Below are positions 1-31,442 of a stretch of DNA of 31,442 nt, in pieces. Origin of the DNA: a virus; IMG/VR virus record IMGVR_UViG_3300031787_000551, positions 1 through 31,442 of that record, one strand, 5' to 3'. A program made the position numbers and the translations under genes. Position 1 is the first letter of the stretch, and the number at the start of each line of letters is the position of its first letter. The notes below the pieces were generated by a model. It ran no database searches. It was given only the letters and a program-made list of their open reading frames with translations, and was not told where the DNA came from.

Positions 1-160
1 TACGGTTACGGTTCCGGTTGCGGTTACGGTTCCGGTTCCGGTTACGGTTTCGGTTGCGGTTACGGTTTCGGTTGCGGTTACGGTTCCGGTTCCGGTTACG
101 GTTTCGGTTGCGGTTACGGTTTCGGTTACGATTCCGGCTACGATTCCGGCTACGGTTACG
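1..160 (+). repeat. CGGTNN hexamer array, left-end copy
   Basis: The contig begins inside an array of hexamers of form CGGTTN in which the last base is A, C, G or T while the other five are constant. Read as codons it is GGT alternating with TAC, TCC, TGC or TTC. TTACGG recurs at 6, 24, 42, 60, 78, 96 and 114, exactly 18 bp apart, so three hexamers form a higher-order unit; a 54-bp block (25-78) is also repeated almost exactly at 79-132. The array ends with a 12-bp unit present twice (127-150), where the right-end copy has it once. Assembly broke here, as expected for a long or polymorphic repeat. Confidence 0.95.
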
Positions 161-232
161 GCGAGGCGACCCTATGAGCAAATTCGACGCATTCTTGGCC
201 CGCGCAGTTGACGCGCACATGACCGGCAACGA
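135..232. repeat. 98-bp terminal identity, left copy
   Basis: Bases 135-232 are identical to 31345-31442, the last 98 bases of the window. Upstream of 135 the two copies diverge within the hexamer array. This is the signature of a contig covering a circular or circularly permuted phage genome once. Trimming at this overlap gives about 31,210 bp, with the array length uncertain. Confidence 0.95.
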
Positions 233-509
233 TGAGGCCGACGAACTGGCCTATCAACTGGCGTATGACGACGCCGCGAATCAGGAGGCCGCCGCGCAGG
301 CTGCTTGCGAGGATGAGGCCGTAGACGTTGCAGCGCTTGCGCTGCGTCTCTACAAGGCCAAGCACGCCGACCGCGCAGGCATCGCCGCCGACTTCGCCAC
401 GGCGGTTCTGGCGAACTTTGTACTGGCCCTCGACCGCATCGCGCAGGACACCCAGTCGAACTTCCTTGACGACGCCATCGACCAACTGAACGAGAGGGGC
501 GCCCCGTGA
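174..509 (+). CDS. Hypothetical early protein, 111 aa
   Basis: This is the first gene of the plus-strand early run after the hexamer array. I do not recognise the family. The protein is acidic and alanine-rich, mostly predicted helix, without a signal peptide or membrane segment. ATG at 174 is preferred: it overlaps by ATGA the stop of the glycine-rich frame coming out of the array (177), and every other junction in this operon is built the same way. An upstream TTG at 18 would add 52 Arg-Leu/Arg-Phe residues encoded by the repeat and is very unlikely to be used. Its own stop overlaps the next gene by GTGA. A partial second copy of its 5' end lies at 31384-31442 because of the contig overlap. 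Confidence 0.75.
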   Translation: MSKFDAFLARAVDAHMTGNDEADELAYQLAYDDAANQEAAAQAACEDEAVDVAALALRLYKAKHADRAGIAADFATAVLANFVLALDRIAQDTQSNFLDDAIDQLNERGAP

Positions 510-1304: not shown

Positions 1305-1492
1305 TCTTGACCACTGAACACCCGGCATCGAACCGGGAACGCCTCGCGGGCTGGTATGGCCGCGCCGCCCTCACGGGCTTCCCGCTGATGCTCGGGCCGC
1401 GCTTTCAGGCGGAGCTTGGTCGCCAGTTTGCGCGTGAGTACGAGGCGGAACAAATCGCGGACAGCGCGCCCAGCATCGGAGGCGAACGATGA
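1301..1492 (+). CDS. Hypothetical early protein, 63 aa
   Basis: A short soluble protein with no recognised motif. It is linked on both sides by ATGA overlaps (1301-1304 and 1489-1492), the last of which couples it to the ERF recombinase gene. The middle contains an amphipathic stretch (GRQFAREYEAEQIAD) that should be helical. It may act with the recombination genes because of position, but no sequence evidence supports a specific function. Confidence 0.65.
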   Translation: MILTTEHPASNRERLAGWYGRAALTGFPLMLGPRFQAELGRQFAREYEAEQIADSAPSIGGER

Positions 1493-2172
1493 ACGTTTAC
1501 AAGGCAATCGCCGCCGTGCAAGCCGAACTGGCGAAGGATGGCATCAGCAAGGACCGCAAGAACGAACAGCAGGGCTATAAGTTCCGAGGCATTGACGACG
1601 TATACAACGCGCTCGCGCCGATCCTGGCGAAGAACGCGCTTTGCATCCTGCCGCGCTGCAAGTCCCGCGAAGTCGTGGAGCGCGTCAACAAGAACGGAAC
1701 CGCGCTGTTCTACGTGACGGTCGAAGCTGAGTTCGACTTTGTGTGCGCCGAGGACGGCAGCAAGCACACCGTTGGGCCGATGTATGGCGAGGCAATGGAC
1801 AGCGGCGACAAGGCCACCAACAAGGCCATGAGCGCCGCTTACAAGTACGCCGCGATGCAGGCGTTCGCCATCCCGACCGAAGGCGACAACGACGCCGACG
1901 CGACGACGCATGAGGTTCAGCCCCGCGCCAAGCCCGAAGGCCAGCCCACAAGCGGCGCATGGGAGGCGGTTGACCGCGAGACGCAGGCCGGTTTGCTCAA
2001 GTGCGCCGCCACGATTGTCGAGTTCATCGAGTCGGGCGACTCCGCTGGCGCGTGGGAGTTCATCGAACGTCAGGCATTCAACACGGATGAAAAGGCGGCG
2101 TTGTGGACGCGCCTTGATTCCAAGACCCGAACCGCGCTGAAAAAGGCGCATGAAGCGAGAAAGGCGGCGTAA
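1489..2172 (+). CDS. erf: ERF-family single-strand annealing protein
   Basis: A 227-aa protein with the ERF signature: an N-terminal MNVYKAIAAVQ helix, QQGYKFRGIDDVYNAL at about 28-43, and the conserved block MYGEAMDSGDKATNKAMSAA at about 98-117 followed by YKYAAMQAFAIPTEGDNDAD. ERF proteins such as P22 Erf and Rad52-like annealases pair complementary single strands and promote recombination and circularisation of phage DNA. Residues after about 145 form a linker and a helical C-terminal domain. The gene is directly followed by an SSB-like gene (TAATG at 2170-2174), the usual partnership of annealase and single-strand-binding protein. No matching exonuclease gene is evident in this operon. 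Confidence 0.92.
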   Translation: MNVYKAIAAVQAELAKDGISKDRKNEQQGYKFRGIDDVYNALAPILAKNALCILPRCKSREVVERVNKNGTALFYVTVEAEFDFVCAEDGSKHTVGPMYGEAMDSGDKATNKAMSAAYKYAAMQAFAIPTEGDNDADATTHEVQPRAKPEGQPTSGAWEAVDRETQAGLLKCAATIVEFIESGDSAGAWEFIERQAFNTDEKAALWTRLDSKTRTALKKAHEARKAA

Positions 2173-4270: not shown

Positions 4271-4554
4271 GCACCGCCGCACGCAAGAACGCCGAGCAGT
4301 CGGGAAACCTCGACGGCTTCTTGGCGAAGAAGTACCGCGCCAACGGCTTCCACATCGAAACCGCCTCGCGCGAGTCTGCGCTTCGAGGTTCTGCCAAGCG
4401 CGCCGCGCTTTACTGCATCGAGGGGCAATACTTCAACGCCGACCAGCTAGCGGAACGCCTCGGCCTTGAGAGGTCGAAGGCGGTGGCGCGAGTCAACCGC
4501 GCGAAGGCAAAGCCGGGGCCGATCACCTGGGCGAAGTTGGGGGTGAATGGATGA
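4267..4554 (+). CDS. Small HTH DNA-binding protein, 95 aa
   Basis: The C-terminal half, YFNADQLAERLGLERSKAVA (54-73) followed by RVNRAKAKPG, reads as a helix-turn-helix with a basic recognition helix. The N-terminal half (ARKNAEQSGNLDGFLAKKYR) is basic. The start is GTG at 4267, inside the GTGA overlap with the preceding gene. It could be a DNA-binding accessory or regulator of the early operon. The HTH is an inference from sequence pattern, with no specific family recognised. Confidence 0.6.
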   Translation: MSTAARKNAEQSGNLDGFLAKKYRANGFHIETASRESALRGSAKRAALYCIEGQYFNADQLAERLGLERSKAVARVNRAKAKPGPITWAKLGVNG

Positions 4555-4707
4555 ATCCGCTGAAGAAGATGATCCCCGGATGGCCTCAAACGCTTCCTTC
4601 CGAGTCGGCAGCAAAGCCTGAGCCATCGGTGAGCCTTGAGCAGCTAATGGTCGAGCTCGCGCGCTACGGCAAGCCGCGCCTTTCGATGGTTCGTCCCGGT
4701 CTATGGT
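4551..4707 (+). pseudogene. 3'-truncated early gene fused to integrase antisense
   Basis: The reading frame MNPLKKMIPGWPQ...LEQLMVELARYGKPRLSMVRPGLW (52 residues) looks like the beginning of a conserved phage early protein. The ATG overlaps the previous stop (ATGA). After Trp at about 4706 the frame continues to a stop at 4799, but this part is Arg/Ala/Pro-rich and is the antisense of the integrase fragment, so the natural 3' end is missing. The truncation point coincides, within about 25 bp, with the loss of the integrase C-terminus on the other strand. A deletion or illegitimate join at 4707-4732 explains both. Confidence 0.65.
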
Positions 4708-5082
4708 CGGCGCGCTGCTCGGCTGCGAGCCGCGCACGGAGGCCGGGGCCACCTGCTTCAGGCGCTCGTCGCGCCACGCGGCGATGGCGGCCGTGGTGAG
4801 CTTCTGGATCGGCGTGGCGGCCATTGGGTGCCGTGCCAGCTTGTTGAGGCGCACGACCTCCCAGCGCTCGCCCTTGTGGCCGGGGGAGACTTCGGCGGCG
4901 TACCGGCGCAGGACCTGGGCGAGCGTCGCTTCGCTGGGGTCGGCCAATTCGCCGGCCTGGTACTCGCGCAGCCACGCGCGGGCCTCGGCCTGCGTGCGGA
5001 AGGTCTTCGACGGGCGCCGGCCATCCGGCAATGCGTCAAGGCGCACGCGCCACGATGGGCCGTGCTTTTCGATGGTCGCCAT
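4708..5082 (-). pseudogene. int: Tyrosine integrase, N-terminal fragment only
   Basis: From ATG at 5082 the frame gives MATIEKHGPSWRVRLDALPD, KTFRTQAEARAWLREYQAGE, then a SAM-like core-binding domain ending WRDERLKQVAPASVR at residue 117 (4732). This matches the arm-binding plus core-binding part of phage integrases, which normally run to 330-400 aa with an R-H-R-Y catalytic domain. After SVR the sequence departs from family pattern and continues into antisense of the plus-strand early gene. No catalytic domain with an HxLRHT-like motif occurs elsewhere in the window. The fragment might still bind arm sites but cannot recombine DNA. Its start has only a weak ribosome site. Confidence 0.8.
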
Positions 5083-5432
5083 CCCTGTTCCCGTGGGGCA
5101 AATCGTGGGGCAAGGATACCGGCGAGGATGGGGGCTTGTGGGGCTATGTGGGGATTGTGAAGGCACCGGGAAGCCGCACGGATAGGGCCTTGTCGGGCCA
5201 TCGTGGGGCACTTCGGGGCAGAGGGGAGGGGGTGGGATTGCCTCTCCTGGGCACCACTGAAGGCCGCGCAATGCGGCCTTCAGCGTTTATGGGGCAATCG
5301 TGGGGCACCGGCACAGCTTCGAGGGGGCTCATTCCTCGTGGTCGCGGGCGAGCTCCGCGCCGTGCTTCCGGTGCCAGCGCATGATGCCGAGCCGGGGGCG
5401 CCTCCGCTGTAGGAGATCGCCCCGGCGTCGCG
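5083..5432. other. Putative attP region with integrase arm-type boxes
   Basis: This 350-bp stretch holds no convincing gene. It contains three exact copies of TCGTGGGGCA at 5103-5112, 5201-5210 and 5298-5307, spaced 98 and 97 bp. Each has a degenerate partner about 10-12 bp away (5091-5100, 5211-5220, 5287-5296), making three pairs; single TGTGGGG boxes also occur near 5137-5154. Directly repeated boxes upstream of an integrase gene are the usual form of arm-type sites in attP. A core crossover site cannot be located without the host attB. The 11-bp hairpin at 5257-5283 lies inside. Confidence 0.5.
5257..5283. terminator. Hairpin, 11-bp perfect stem, between convergent operons
   Basis: CTGAAGGCCGC (5257-5267), loop GCAAT, then GCGGCCTTCAG (5273-5283): a perfect 11-bp stem. 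On the plus strand it is followed by CGTTTATGG, on the minus strand by TGGTGCC, so the U-tract is poor on both sides. Its place downstream of Rz1 on the minus strand and between converging operons fits a bidirectional transcription stop. A structural element of attP is an alternative. Confidence 0.5.
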
Positions 5433-25913: not shown

Positions 25914-26557
25914 GTGATTGCGTCCTGAATGTCTTGAATGTCCGCGCCTTCATCGAAGCGCCCCAAAAACTCGCCGTCCGCGATTTGCTCCGACGCTGCG
26001 CGCACACGGATTCCGCCGCATGGCTCGCGGTAGATGTCAACGGGCCGCGCGCCAATCCATCCGGCAATCCGCGTCGCCATATCCGCAGGCTCCCCTGCTC
26101 GGACAATGCGGCCTTCAGATGGCTTGCGCTTTGCGGTCTTGCGCTTAGCGCCGACCGGCTCTGCGTCGATCTTGAAGGCCGAATCTTTCAGTGCCGAAAA
26201 GATGGTCGCAGCCTTGGTTCCTCTCGGAACGTCGAACTGAACCGCCCAGCCTGCGGGCACTTCCTCGCCCTTGCGGATGGCGCGGTATCCGCCATCAAGC
26301 GTGCGGACGATATGGCAGGCGTGATGCTTGCAGTACGGGGCGAGGCCGATAGCCACGCCAGACAACGGGCCAAACAACCCGCGATCCTCAATTTTTCGCT
26401 TCAACAATTCGTTTTCTCGGCCAAGGCGCGCGAGGCGGTCGGCGGCTTCGAGAATGACGGCGATAAGGTCGCGGCTCGCGCCGTGTTCGTGCATCAGCTT
26501 GGCGCGCTTTCGAAGTTTCGCGCCGATGATTTGTCCTTCGCTGCGATTTTCGTTCAT
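25910..26557 (-). CDS. Hypothetical protein with coiled coil, 215 aa
   Basis: ATG 26557 is chosen because it overlaps the preceding stop (ATGA); the open frame extends far upstream, but over real genes. Residues 10-60 are helical and basic (AKLRKRAKLMHEHGASRDLI, RLARLGRENELLKRKIEDRG), followed by CKHHACHIVRTLDGG with a Cys/His cluster, then a basic KRKTAKRKPSEGR linker and an acidic end (DEGADIQDIQDAIT). No family recognised; the Cys/His group might bind metal. Confidence 0.62.
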   Translation of the reverse strand: MNENRSEGQIIGAKLRKRAKLMHEHGASRDLIAVILEAADRLARLGRENELLKRKIEDRGLFGPLSGVAIGLAPYCKHHACHIVRTLDGGYRAIRKGEEVPAGWAVQFDVPRGTKAATIFSALKDSAFKIDAEPVGAKRKTAKRKPSEGRIVRAGEPADMATRIAGWIGARPVDIYREPCGGIRVRAASEQIADGEFLGRFDEGADIQDIQDAIT

Positions 26558-26898
26558 TTGCTTAGGAGTTCGTTCTGGATGGTTAGGAGTTCTGCGTCTG
26601 TGCCGAACGCTGCGCGAAATGGCTTTGAGCCCTTCGCCAGCGACGGGCCTAGGTAGTCGAGGGATTCCGCGTCGCCCCATCCGAAGGGCGGGATGCCTCG
26701 GTGATGCCACTGGCAGAGAGATACAGTCGCCATGTGGCCGATGCGCCTGTTCCCGCTGAGTAGGTGGTGAATCTCGATGTGCTGCGCGTACTCCGGTTGA
26801 GTGCCGCGCAACATGCAGGCGATGCAAACGCCTTTCTCTTTCATCGCGTCGAATCGGGCTTGTTCGGCCTTGGTCGGCTTTCCGGTGCTGTGCTTCAT
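26554..26898 (-). CDS. Ref-like HNH nuclease, 114 aa
   Basis: The sequence has GVCIACMLRG (Cys pair), EYAQHIEIHHLLSGNRRIGH and ATVSLCQWHHRG, an HNH-like metal-binding pattern matching the Ref family (recombination enhancement, RecA-dependent nuclease) known from phage P1 and many prophages. These proteins cut DNA in RecA-bound D-loops. The length is typical of the short phage members. It follows a NinB-like gene, in a nin-type region downstream of the helicase, with ATGA overlaps on both sides. Confidence 0.8.
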   Translation of the reverse strand: MKHSTGKPTKAEQARFDAMKEKGVCIACMLRGTQPEYAQHIEIHHLLSGNRRIGHMATVSLCQWHHRGIPPFGWGDAESLDYLGPSLAKGSKPFRAAFGTDAELLTIQNELLSK

Positions 26899-30369: not shown

Positions 30370-30603
30370 TCAGAGGGTGACGGTGTAGCTAACGAGGCGC
30401 CCGCGCTTGTCTCGCCGCCATTTTAGGTCTGGGCGCAGCGATTCGGCAGAAACGCCGCCAGCCGTTGCGCGGTCGATTGCCGCAACATGCTCAGGCGTGG
30501 GCTGAGTCTTGCCGCTGACCCAATGGCGCGCAGCCTCGCGGGACACGCCTGCGGCGCGGGCTAGGTCGGCGGCGGTTTTGAAGTGAATCGACAGTGTTTT
30601 CAT
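30370..30603 (-). CDS. Cro/YdaS-like HTH repressor, 77 aa
   Basis: The sequence IHFKTAADLARAAGVSREAA followed by RHWVSGKTQPTPEHVAAIDR is a clear helix-turn-helix of the YdaS/Cro type (7-45), then a short basic tail. It is the first leftward gene, facing the divergent rightward gene at 30762, the position of cro in lambdoid phages. A perfect 14-bp palindrome (30611-30624) lies directly before its start and is its probable operator. There is no Shine-Dalgarno sequence before the ATG, so the message could be leaderless. Confidence 0.82.
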   Translation of the reverse strand: MKTLSIHFKTAADLARAAGVSREAARHWVSGKTQPTPEHVAAIDRATAGGVSAESLRPDLKWRRDKRGRLVSYTVTL

Positions 30604-30761: not shown

Positions 30762-31097
30762 GTGACCACTCGCAATACCAAGACCCAGGCCAAGAAGACG
30801 GCCCCCGAGACGGCAGAGGTGATTCCGGTCGTCGTTTGCACTGACAAGCGCGGCGTCGTGTTCGGCTACACGAACAAGCCCAACGCCCGACCTGTCGTCC
30901 TGACCAATGCGCGCATGTGTCTGTATTGGTCTTCGGCTGTCGGCGGCGTGTTCGGCCTTGCTGACGTTGGCCCGGACACTCAGAGCAAGATTTCAGCCAC
31001 TGCGCCGAGTATCACGCTTGAAGGCGTGACCGCTGTCCTCGGGGTCACTCCGCAGGCCGCCGCCGCCTGGACGGCTGCGCGGGTTCAGGGGCGCTAA
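30762..31097 (+). CDS. Conserved small early protein, DUF6948-like
   Basis: A 111-aa protein from GTG 30762, with GGAGG upstream; a longer frame from 30594 would cross the promoter and is rejected. After a Lys/Thr-rich start, the core is VIPVVVCTDKRGVVFGYTNK, PVVLTNARMCLYWSSAVGGV and a C-terminal helix (TPQAAAAWTAARVQ). The VVLTNAR-x4-YWS pattern resembles the uncharacterised DUF6948 family of phage early proteins; this is from memory and uncertain. It is the first gene of the rightward operon and is followed at once by a terminator-like hairpin. Confidence 0.72.
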   Translation: MTTRNTKTQAKKTAPETAEVIPVVVCTDKRGVVFGYTNKPNARPVVLTNARMCLYWSSAVGGVFGLADVGPDTQSKISATAPSITLEGVTAVLGVTPQAAAAWTAARVQGR

Positions 31098-31099
31098 CC

Positions 31100-31387
31100 G
31101 TGGCCGCCCTGATTAGCGGCGAGCTTGCCGGGGCGGCTTTTTGCTCCGGTTCCGGTTACGGTGACGGTTCCGGTTGCGGTTCCGGTTACGGTGACGGTTC
31201 CGGTGACGGTGACGGTGACGGTGACGGTGACGGTTTCGGTTTCGGTTTCGGTTGCGGTTACGGTTCCGGTTTCGGTTTCGGTTACGGTTACGGTTCCGGT
31301 TGCGGTTACGGTTCCGGTTTCGGTTTCGGTTACGGTTACGGTTTCGGCTACGATTCCGGCTACGGTTACGGCGAGGCGACCCTATGA
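31100..31387 (+). CDS. Glycine-rich (Gly-X)n low-complexity protein, 95 aa
   Basis: Frame from GTG 31100, two bases after the previous stop: MAALISGELAGAAFC, then Gly alternating with Ser, Tyr, Asp, Cys or Phe for about 70 residues, ending YGYGEATL with an ATGA overlap to the next early gene. The overlap and the ribosome-like AGGGGC argue for translation. Against it, the repeat has no stops in several frames, GGT is not the favoured Gly codon in this genome, and a terminator-like hairpin covers the start. If real, the Tyr/Phe-Gly composition resembles disordered, self-associating domains such as FG or GYG repeats. Confidence 0.35.
   Translation: MAALISGELAGAAFCSGSGYGDGSGCGSGYGDGSGDGDGDGDGDGFGFGFGCGYGSGFGFGYGYGSGCGYGSGFGFGYGYGFGYDSGYGYGEATL
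31102..31142 (+). terminator. Rho-independent terminator before the hexamer array
   Basis: GCCGCCC (31103-31109) pairs with GGGCGGC (31131-31137), with an inner CGGC/GCCG stem, followed by TTTTT (31138-31142). This is a typical intrinsic terminator just after the first rightward gene. Genes beyond the array would then need readthrough or antitermination, as in the lambda pL and pR operons. Confidence 0.65.
31145..31370 (+). repeat. CGGTNN hexamer array, right-end copy
   Basis: About 37 hexamers of CGGTTN or CGGTGA. Sub-structure: a 30-bp unit twice (31151-31180, 31181-31210, last hexamer changed), five consecutive CGGTGA (Gly-Asp) units around 31202-31231, three CGGTTT, then a 48-bp unit twice (31253-31300, 31301-31348). 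The end has one 12-bp TACGATTCCGGC unit, where the left-end copy has two. None of the 18-bp periodicity of the left copy is present, so the two ends show different array versions. Confidence 0.95.
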
Positions 31388-31442
31388 GCAAATTCGACGC
31401 ATTCTTGGCCCGCGCAGTTGACGCGCACATGACCGGCAACGA
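31345..31442. repeat. 98-bp terminal identity, right copy
   Basis: Identical to 135-232. It includes the array end and the first 59 bases of the 111-aa early gene (start at 31384). It marks the closing overlap of the contig. Confidence 0.95.

Follow-up and report, generated by a model that had tools for sequence, protein, structure and literature searches.

The array of CGGTNN hexamers present at both ends of a phage contig is probably the coding repeat of a hypervariable (Gly-X)n protein, encoded behind a predicted Sm/LSm-like protein of the DUF6948 family, and the two versions of the array at the contig ends would be co-existing alleles of one gene. The contig, IMG/VR record IMGVR_UViG_3300031787_000551, was analysed over its entire 31,442 bases (hereafter, the window). 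It represents a phage with a P22-like portal, a Terminase_3-type large terminase, and a DnaB-like helicase. The dipeptide-repeat gene and its array are referred to below as the GX gene and the GX array.

The array as a gene in the window

The array lies in frame within an open reading frame (ORF), and a stop codon follows directly after it, a feature absent from the earlier note on this DNA. The in-frame translation of the right-hand version begins with MAALISGELAGAAFCSGSGYGDGSGCG and ends with GYDSGYGYGEATL before the stop. The coordinates of the features are collected in Table 1.

Table 1. Features of the window that bear on the GX array
Feature	Position	Strand	Remarks
(Gly-X)n gene, left-hand version, 3' part	1..177	+	59 codons including stop; cut by contig start; array 1-161
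98-bp shared block, left copy	135..232	+	array edge, stop codon, first 59 bp of next gene
Next gene (MSKFDAFLARAVDAHMTGND...)	174..509	+	ATG overlaps GX stop; no family match
ERF-family single-strand annealing protein gene	1489..2172	+	Pfam ERF E 1.9e-22; in same rightward run
DUF6948 gene (PF22253), predicted Sm/LSm-like beta-barrel	30762..31097	+	Pfam E 1.4e-23; stop 2 nt before GX start
(Gly-X)n dipeptide-repeat gene, right-hand version, 95 aa	31100..31387	+	GTG start, AGGGG upstream; TGA stop overlaps next ATG
Hexamer array, right-hand version, ~38 units GGT-NNC	31145..31371	+	X = Y, S, F, D, C
98-bp shared block, right copy	31345..31442	+	ends at contig end; k-mer graph merge at 31345

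The DUF6948 protein of the window scores 83.3 bits, above the Pfam gathering cut-off of 27. The (Gly-X)n protein has no match in Pfam, and its array matches phrog_18306 weakly (E 0.0025, in low-complexity sequence).

Three other genes of the window may be mentioned. A YdaS/Cro-like regulator (30370-30603, minus strand) is divergent from the DUF6948-GX operon, which suggests that a lysogeny switch region controls the operon. An integrase-like ORF (4447-5271, minus strand) matches only positions 119-230 of the 611 of phrog_1 (E 3.7e-10) and lacks the catalytic part; it is a truncated or frameshifted integrase. A gene of the RecA-dependent nuclease family (Ref-like; 26554-26898, minus strand; Pfam E 3.5e-20) lies beside the replication genes.

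Comparison of the two contig ends

The earlier note described a flank of 98 identical bases preceded by two arrays of different structure, and this description is borne out. A base-by-base check gives a shared block of exactly 98 bp. In the left array, the 18-bp periodicity (described as TTACGG) is seen in TAC units, which recur with this spacing from unit 2 onwards, and the 54-bp repeat is an exact 59-bp match at offset 54 (15-73 against 69-127). In the right array, the 48-bp repeat is an exact 47-bp match at offset 48 (31249/31297), the 30-bp repeat is an exact 28-bp match at offset 30 (31147/31177), and CGGTGA occurs five times consecutively from 31201. The right end also has one 12-bp edge unit fewer, TACGATTCCGGC being present twice next to the flank on the left and once on the right.

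The internal repeats exceed those expected from shuffles of the units in both the left (p 0.0002) and the right array (p 0.0014). A 37-bp block is common to the two arrays (starting at 1 on the left and 31283 on the right). At the level of units, the common block of six units has p 0.026 and the edit distance between the arrays has p 0.15. Beyond the common edges, the unit-level likeness of the two arrays thus appears weak.

No other contig with an array at both ends was found among the matches listed. Neither a blastn search of the right contig end against phages nor an exact scan of viral contigs for the flank gave a match, in collections that may lack near relatives.

Variation of the array among related phages

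The clearest comparison is offered by two isolates, the Pectobacterium phages Ymer and Amona, which are free of mismatches over 2,000 bp upstream and 800 bp downstream. Their GX genes (222 and 204 nt) differ by 13 mismatches and 18 gap columns. The identity runs for ~1.7 kb downstream before the sequences diverge again, the genomes being mosaics. Among eight Ymer-type phages the GX gene varies between 162 and 270 nt, and seven of the arrays are distinct.

Metagenomic pairs behave similarly. In the IMG/VR contigs L088 and L108, the upstream 597 bp are identical and the downstream 1,497 bp contain one mismatch (one in 2,094 flanking bases), while the arrays differ in length by 162 bp (27 units); the junction homology is only 5 bp, and repeat collapse is therefore disfavoured. 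L044 and L110 have different arrays next to 1,500 bp of identical downstream sequence. In L026 and L027, the 600-bp flanks align without gaps, with 10 and 5 mismatches, and the array shows 18 mismatches and 36 gap columns. Each metagenomic pair may hold an assembly error, but the isolate pair Ymer/Amona is independent of these. The length differences between alleles are multiples of 6, so that the frame is kept. On the evidence of these alignments, the array changes in 6-bp units and far faster than its flanks.

There are counter-examples. The arrays of Ymer and Abuela are identical, and those of L095 and L121, contigs that are 99.7% identical, are a single unit apart. Change of the array therefore appears to be fast, yet not to occur at every step.

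In the Ymer-genus phages L162-L169, the gene that follows the GX gene directly, for a membrane protein, varies from phage to phage (Sabo, Setonix), and a module boundary therefore lies within ~100 bp of the array.

Origin of the difference between the contig ends

The earlier note had offered two interpretations, rapidly changing array alleles or one long array of which the contig shows two parts. The first receives strong support from the near-identical relatives, including isolates, although for this contig the support is indirect. The second fails as stated: each array leads into one and the same unique flank, stop codon included, and a duplication of array and flank together would be needed.

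A k-mer graph bears on the same question. With one version, the graph is unbranched over the k range of 55 to 141, and neither array contains a repeated k-mer at k of at least 77. When the second version is added, a single merge appears, at 31345. Because a single version is unbranched at k of at least 55, a clonal population would be expected to yield a closed circle. In fact the contig stops at 31442, exactly 98 bases beyond the point where the two versions turn identical. These comparisons of sequence strongly indicate that the ends of the contig represent two alleles of the GX gene that were present together in the phage population sampled, and the assembler would have stopped where the paths of the two alleles merge. 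Many assemblers leave overlaps of k. The overlap of 98 bp corresponds to k-1 for k = 99, a fit that is only suggestive.

Breakage at the array is not peculiar to the window. The array lies within 100 nt of an end in 12 of the 26 contigs examined in full (0.69 expected by random placement), and of the 28 viral contigs anchored on DUF6948, 7 terminate no more than 350 nt downstream of that gene. Array-linked breakage is general; taken alone it is not evidence of heterogeneity, for which the pair comparisons are needed.

Two other explanations of the unlike ends may be considered. The phage could carry GX genes in tandem, at least two of them, that differ in their arrays but not in their flanks and that the assembler was unable to order. 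Such an arrangement exists in L062, where five tandem GX genes (1659-2968), ~0.7 kb downstream of a DUF6948 gene, have identical flanks of 44-190 bp and five different arrays. The duplicated unit in L062 is, however, the GX gene alone, whereas the 98 bp shared here take in 59 bp of the next gene, a stretch that would need to be part of the duplicated unit. Moreover, L062 is the only one among 121 loci to have tandem GX copies with long identical flanks, and this explanation seems quite improbable for the window.

The second explanation is an artefact of the library or the assembly, in which only one array is real and the other is a product of mis-joining, of a chimera, or of slippage during PCR. 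Repeat arrays readily undergo such slippage and often lie at contig ends, and one of the loci examined (L012) is apparently chimeric past its array. The two versions differ, however, in unit types and long-range order and not in copy number alone, the lack of repeated k-mers at k of at least 77 applies to both, and a difference of this kind is also seen between the genomes of isolates. An artefact is accordingly judged to be rather unlikely, and co-existing alleles are retained as the preferred reading of the two ends.

Association of the array with DUF6948 across phages

A profile scan for DUF6948 yielded 28 viral and 2 bacterial-bin loci, to which L020 is added. A clear GX ORF lies downstream at all of these loci except four. 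In L011 the contig ends 22 nt past the DUF6948 stop, in L012 seven GXG are followed by the apparently chimeric sequence, and in L032 and L035 the downstream ORF is unclear or encodes a different repeat. At the typical junction, the DUF6948 stop is followed by the GX start in the form TRA-N-ATG, and the GX protein begins with a short segment of the type MxxhhhG.

In the reverse test, 80 arrays were fetched by a DNA pattern blind to DUF6948, of which 68 had enough upstream sequence. An iterated HMM finds a DUF6948-like domain upstream in 57 of these 68, typically ~100 nt before the array, and Pfam confirms DUF6948 upstream in 14 of 22 representative arrays. In L051, DUF6948 and the array are fused in one ORF. 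The profile of phrog_18306 is matched by the array at positions 54-136 and by DUF6948 at 153-231; other DUF6948 proteins match it with E values down to 2e-8, and that of the window gives no match. Searches in both directions thus establish, at the level of gene order, that the DUF6948-(Gly-X)n pair occurs in many phages.

Searches with single proteins gave mixed results. By tblastn, neither the DUF6948 of the window nor that of L033 has a match in phages, and that of the window has none in plasmids; a divergent DUF6948 used as query finds 15 phage records. The PADLOC profiles for anti-phage defence match neither DUF6948 nor the GX protein. In the open-access papers searched DUF6948 is named nowhere and the string GYGDGYG is absent, and the Ymer-genus paper (PMC11445585) has no match for glycine or variability.

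In the public records of Chlorobiaceae phage CV-1-33 (L171) and Iodobacter phage PhiPLPE (L170), the array is annotated in another frame (MAMAMAL...) or is unannotated, and the GX gene family is therefore under-annotated. Other short-repeat proteins also adjoin DUF6948, at L035:3240-3569 and downstream in L019 (LSGDVTGLYGNV-type and pentapeptide-type), and these are perhaps alternative partners of DUF6948.

Evidence for translation of the array

In all, 110 arrays with 3,561 units were compiled, and the counts of frame opening are for 100 arrays. In 86 of the 100, an ATG leads into the array in the Gly-X frame; the other two frames have such an ATG in 23 and 13. The stop after the array comes at a median of 3 codons in the Gly-X frame, and of 24 and 16 in the others.

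The first position of the dipeptide is Gly in 97.5% of the units, and X is Y (42%), S (23.5%), D (23%), or N (7%), which together make up ~95%; residues such as A, T, H, and V each account for less than 1%. Deviations from the array consensus occur in 0.03-0.04 of the units at synonymous third positions, and in 0.34 and 0.27 at positions 1 and 2 of the X codon. The X residue is therefore ~8 times more variable than the synonymous sites, but within a narrow set, which indicates that the alternation of Gly and the mix of residues are kept, and the order and number of the units are not. The third positions are nearly uniform within an array and differ among phages (GGC TAC, GGC TAT, GGT TAC). The comparative evidence establishes translation of the array in the Gly-X frame.

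It might be argued that the array acts as DNA (an iteron, a packaging site, or a recombination site) and that its coding capacity is incidental. The array does consist of direct hexamer repeats, and genes for ERF, SSB, and exonuclease lie near the pair in several phages. Against this, the DNA words vary in the manner just described while the Gly-X pattern is constant, the frame bias is strong, and fusions to DUF6948 occur, all of which make a purely DNA-level role very unlikely. Targeted hypermutation by a diversity-generating retroelement, which might be suspected from the left array, where variation is confined to the middle base of TNC codons, is largely refuted and is regarded as extremely improbable: the reverse transcriptase (PF00078) is absent from the window and from four relatives, and the changes extend beyond A (T/G at position 1 of X) and include indels of 6-bp units.

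Predicted fold of DUF6948

AlphaFold models were obtained for the DUF6948 protein of the window (pLDDT 84) and for a divergent DUF6948-like subfamily (pLDDT 92.7). Each is a small barrel of five strands in which strands 3 and 4 are separated by a helix, and for both the top matches from Foldseek and VIA are almost all Sm/LSm chains. The best E values (5.5e-3 for the window protein and 1.8e-2 for the divergent subfamily) are weak individually, and the best Z values (7.0 and 8.0, respectively) fall in the range of 7-8 that the tool rates as middling. PDB 3by7, an Sm-like protein of metagenomic origin, is the best or a near-best match of both models (Z 7.0 and 7.3). A search of PDB sequences for Sm1/Sm2 likeness with profiles A1 and A2 gave no match up to E 10.

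These models suggest that the DUF6948 protein probably has an Sm/LSm-like fold. The fold alone shows no function, and RNA binding and condensation are putative. Rof, the inhibitor of Rho, is also Sm-like (PMC11018626), and a Rof-like inhibition of Rho was considered for DUF6948; Rof is absent among the matches listed, which counts neither for nor against that role.

Proposed mechanism and significance

We infer that the arrays may change by replication slippage together with recombination between short repeats, and that the ERF-type annealing protein of the phage itself (Table 1) perhaps assists the change. Genes for Erf, SSB, and exonuclease are also near the DUF6948-GX pair in the Ymer genus. 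With moderate to low confidence, selection may keep the composition of the protein (Gly at alternate positions with a mix of Tyr, Ser, and Asp) and not its order or length; the GX protein may, at the same level of confidence, resemble a disordered sticker-and-spacer chain; and, likewise with moderate to low confidence and by analogy with the low-complexity tails of Sm/LSm/Hfq proteins, among them the glycine-rich tail of Acinetobacter Hfq, this chain and its Sm-like partner would together bind RNA and cluster it in the early phase of infection.

A wider proposal, which is tentative and on balance doubtful, is that many tailed phages encode a two-part device for clustering RNA, made up of an RNA-binding protein of Sm/LSm type and a (Gly-X)n chain that is hypervariable. 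The composition of the chain would be selected while its order and length drift in the population, and each phage would constitute a natural library of sticker-spacer polymers that act, at an early stage of infection, on RNA of the host or of the phage.

The findings describe a common and mostly unannotated phage gene pair, a predicted Sm/LSm-like protein and a dipeptide-repeat protein that is rewritten amid identical kilobases. The GX arrays provide a natural set of variants for asking what selection sees in low-complexity proteins, and a fast intrinsic marker of phage microdiversity. They are also a practical cause of many breaks in phage contigs, since about half of the array contigs examined in full end at or near the array. 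According to a published statement (PMC4893331), variable number tandem repeats (VNTRs) are not generally found in phages; the statement does not hold for the GX-array phages.

Comparison with known systems

One of the close entries in the databases is phrog_18306 (PHROGs, unknown function), in which the array and DUF6948 are apparently in one protein, whereas in the window they are separate adjacent genes; no function or variability is recorded for it. The upstream gene of the window is a clear member of DUF6948 (PF22253), but the Pfam description covers the domain only, without the (GX)n partner or the Sm-like fold. PDB 3by7 matches the DUF6948 models in structure without detectable sequence similarity, and no repeat partner is known for it.

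The bacterial coding VNTRs and contingency repeats likewise change rapidly in repeat number by slippage or recombination, and the GX array is itself a coding VNTR, in that the number of units differs between close relatives and the flanks are conserved. The contingency repeats differ in that they switch genes on and off, whereas the 6-bp unit of the GX array keeps the frame and only the length and order of the protein vary. A phase-variable contingency locus was rejected for this reason, the changes in array length being multiples of 6 with no frame shift.

The Hfq proteins of Acinetobacter and other Moraxellaceae combine an Sm fold with a repetitive glycine-rich tail that varies in length between species (PMC5663733; title of Sharma 2018, as cited in PMC12802169). 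The DUF6948-GX pair shares with this Hfq the glycine-rich repeat and, as predicted here, the Sm fold. Hfq differs in being cellular and fused and is not known to have a strict Gly-X dipeptide repeat, and no sequence relation between the two is apparent. In eukaryotes, SmD1, SmD3, and LSm4 carry an Sm barrel with a low-complexity, dipeptide-like tail that is linked to RNP assembly or condensates. Their tails are rich in Arg-Gly or Gln/Asn, whereas the phage GX protein is composed of Gly-Tyr/Ser/Asp and is usually encoded by a separate ORF.
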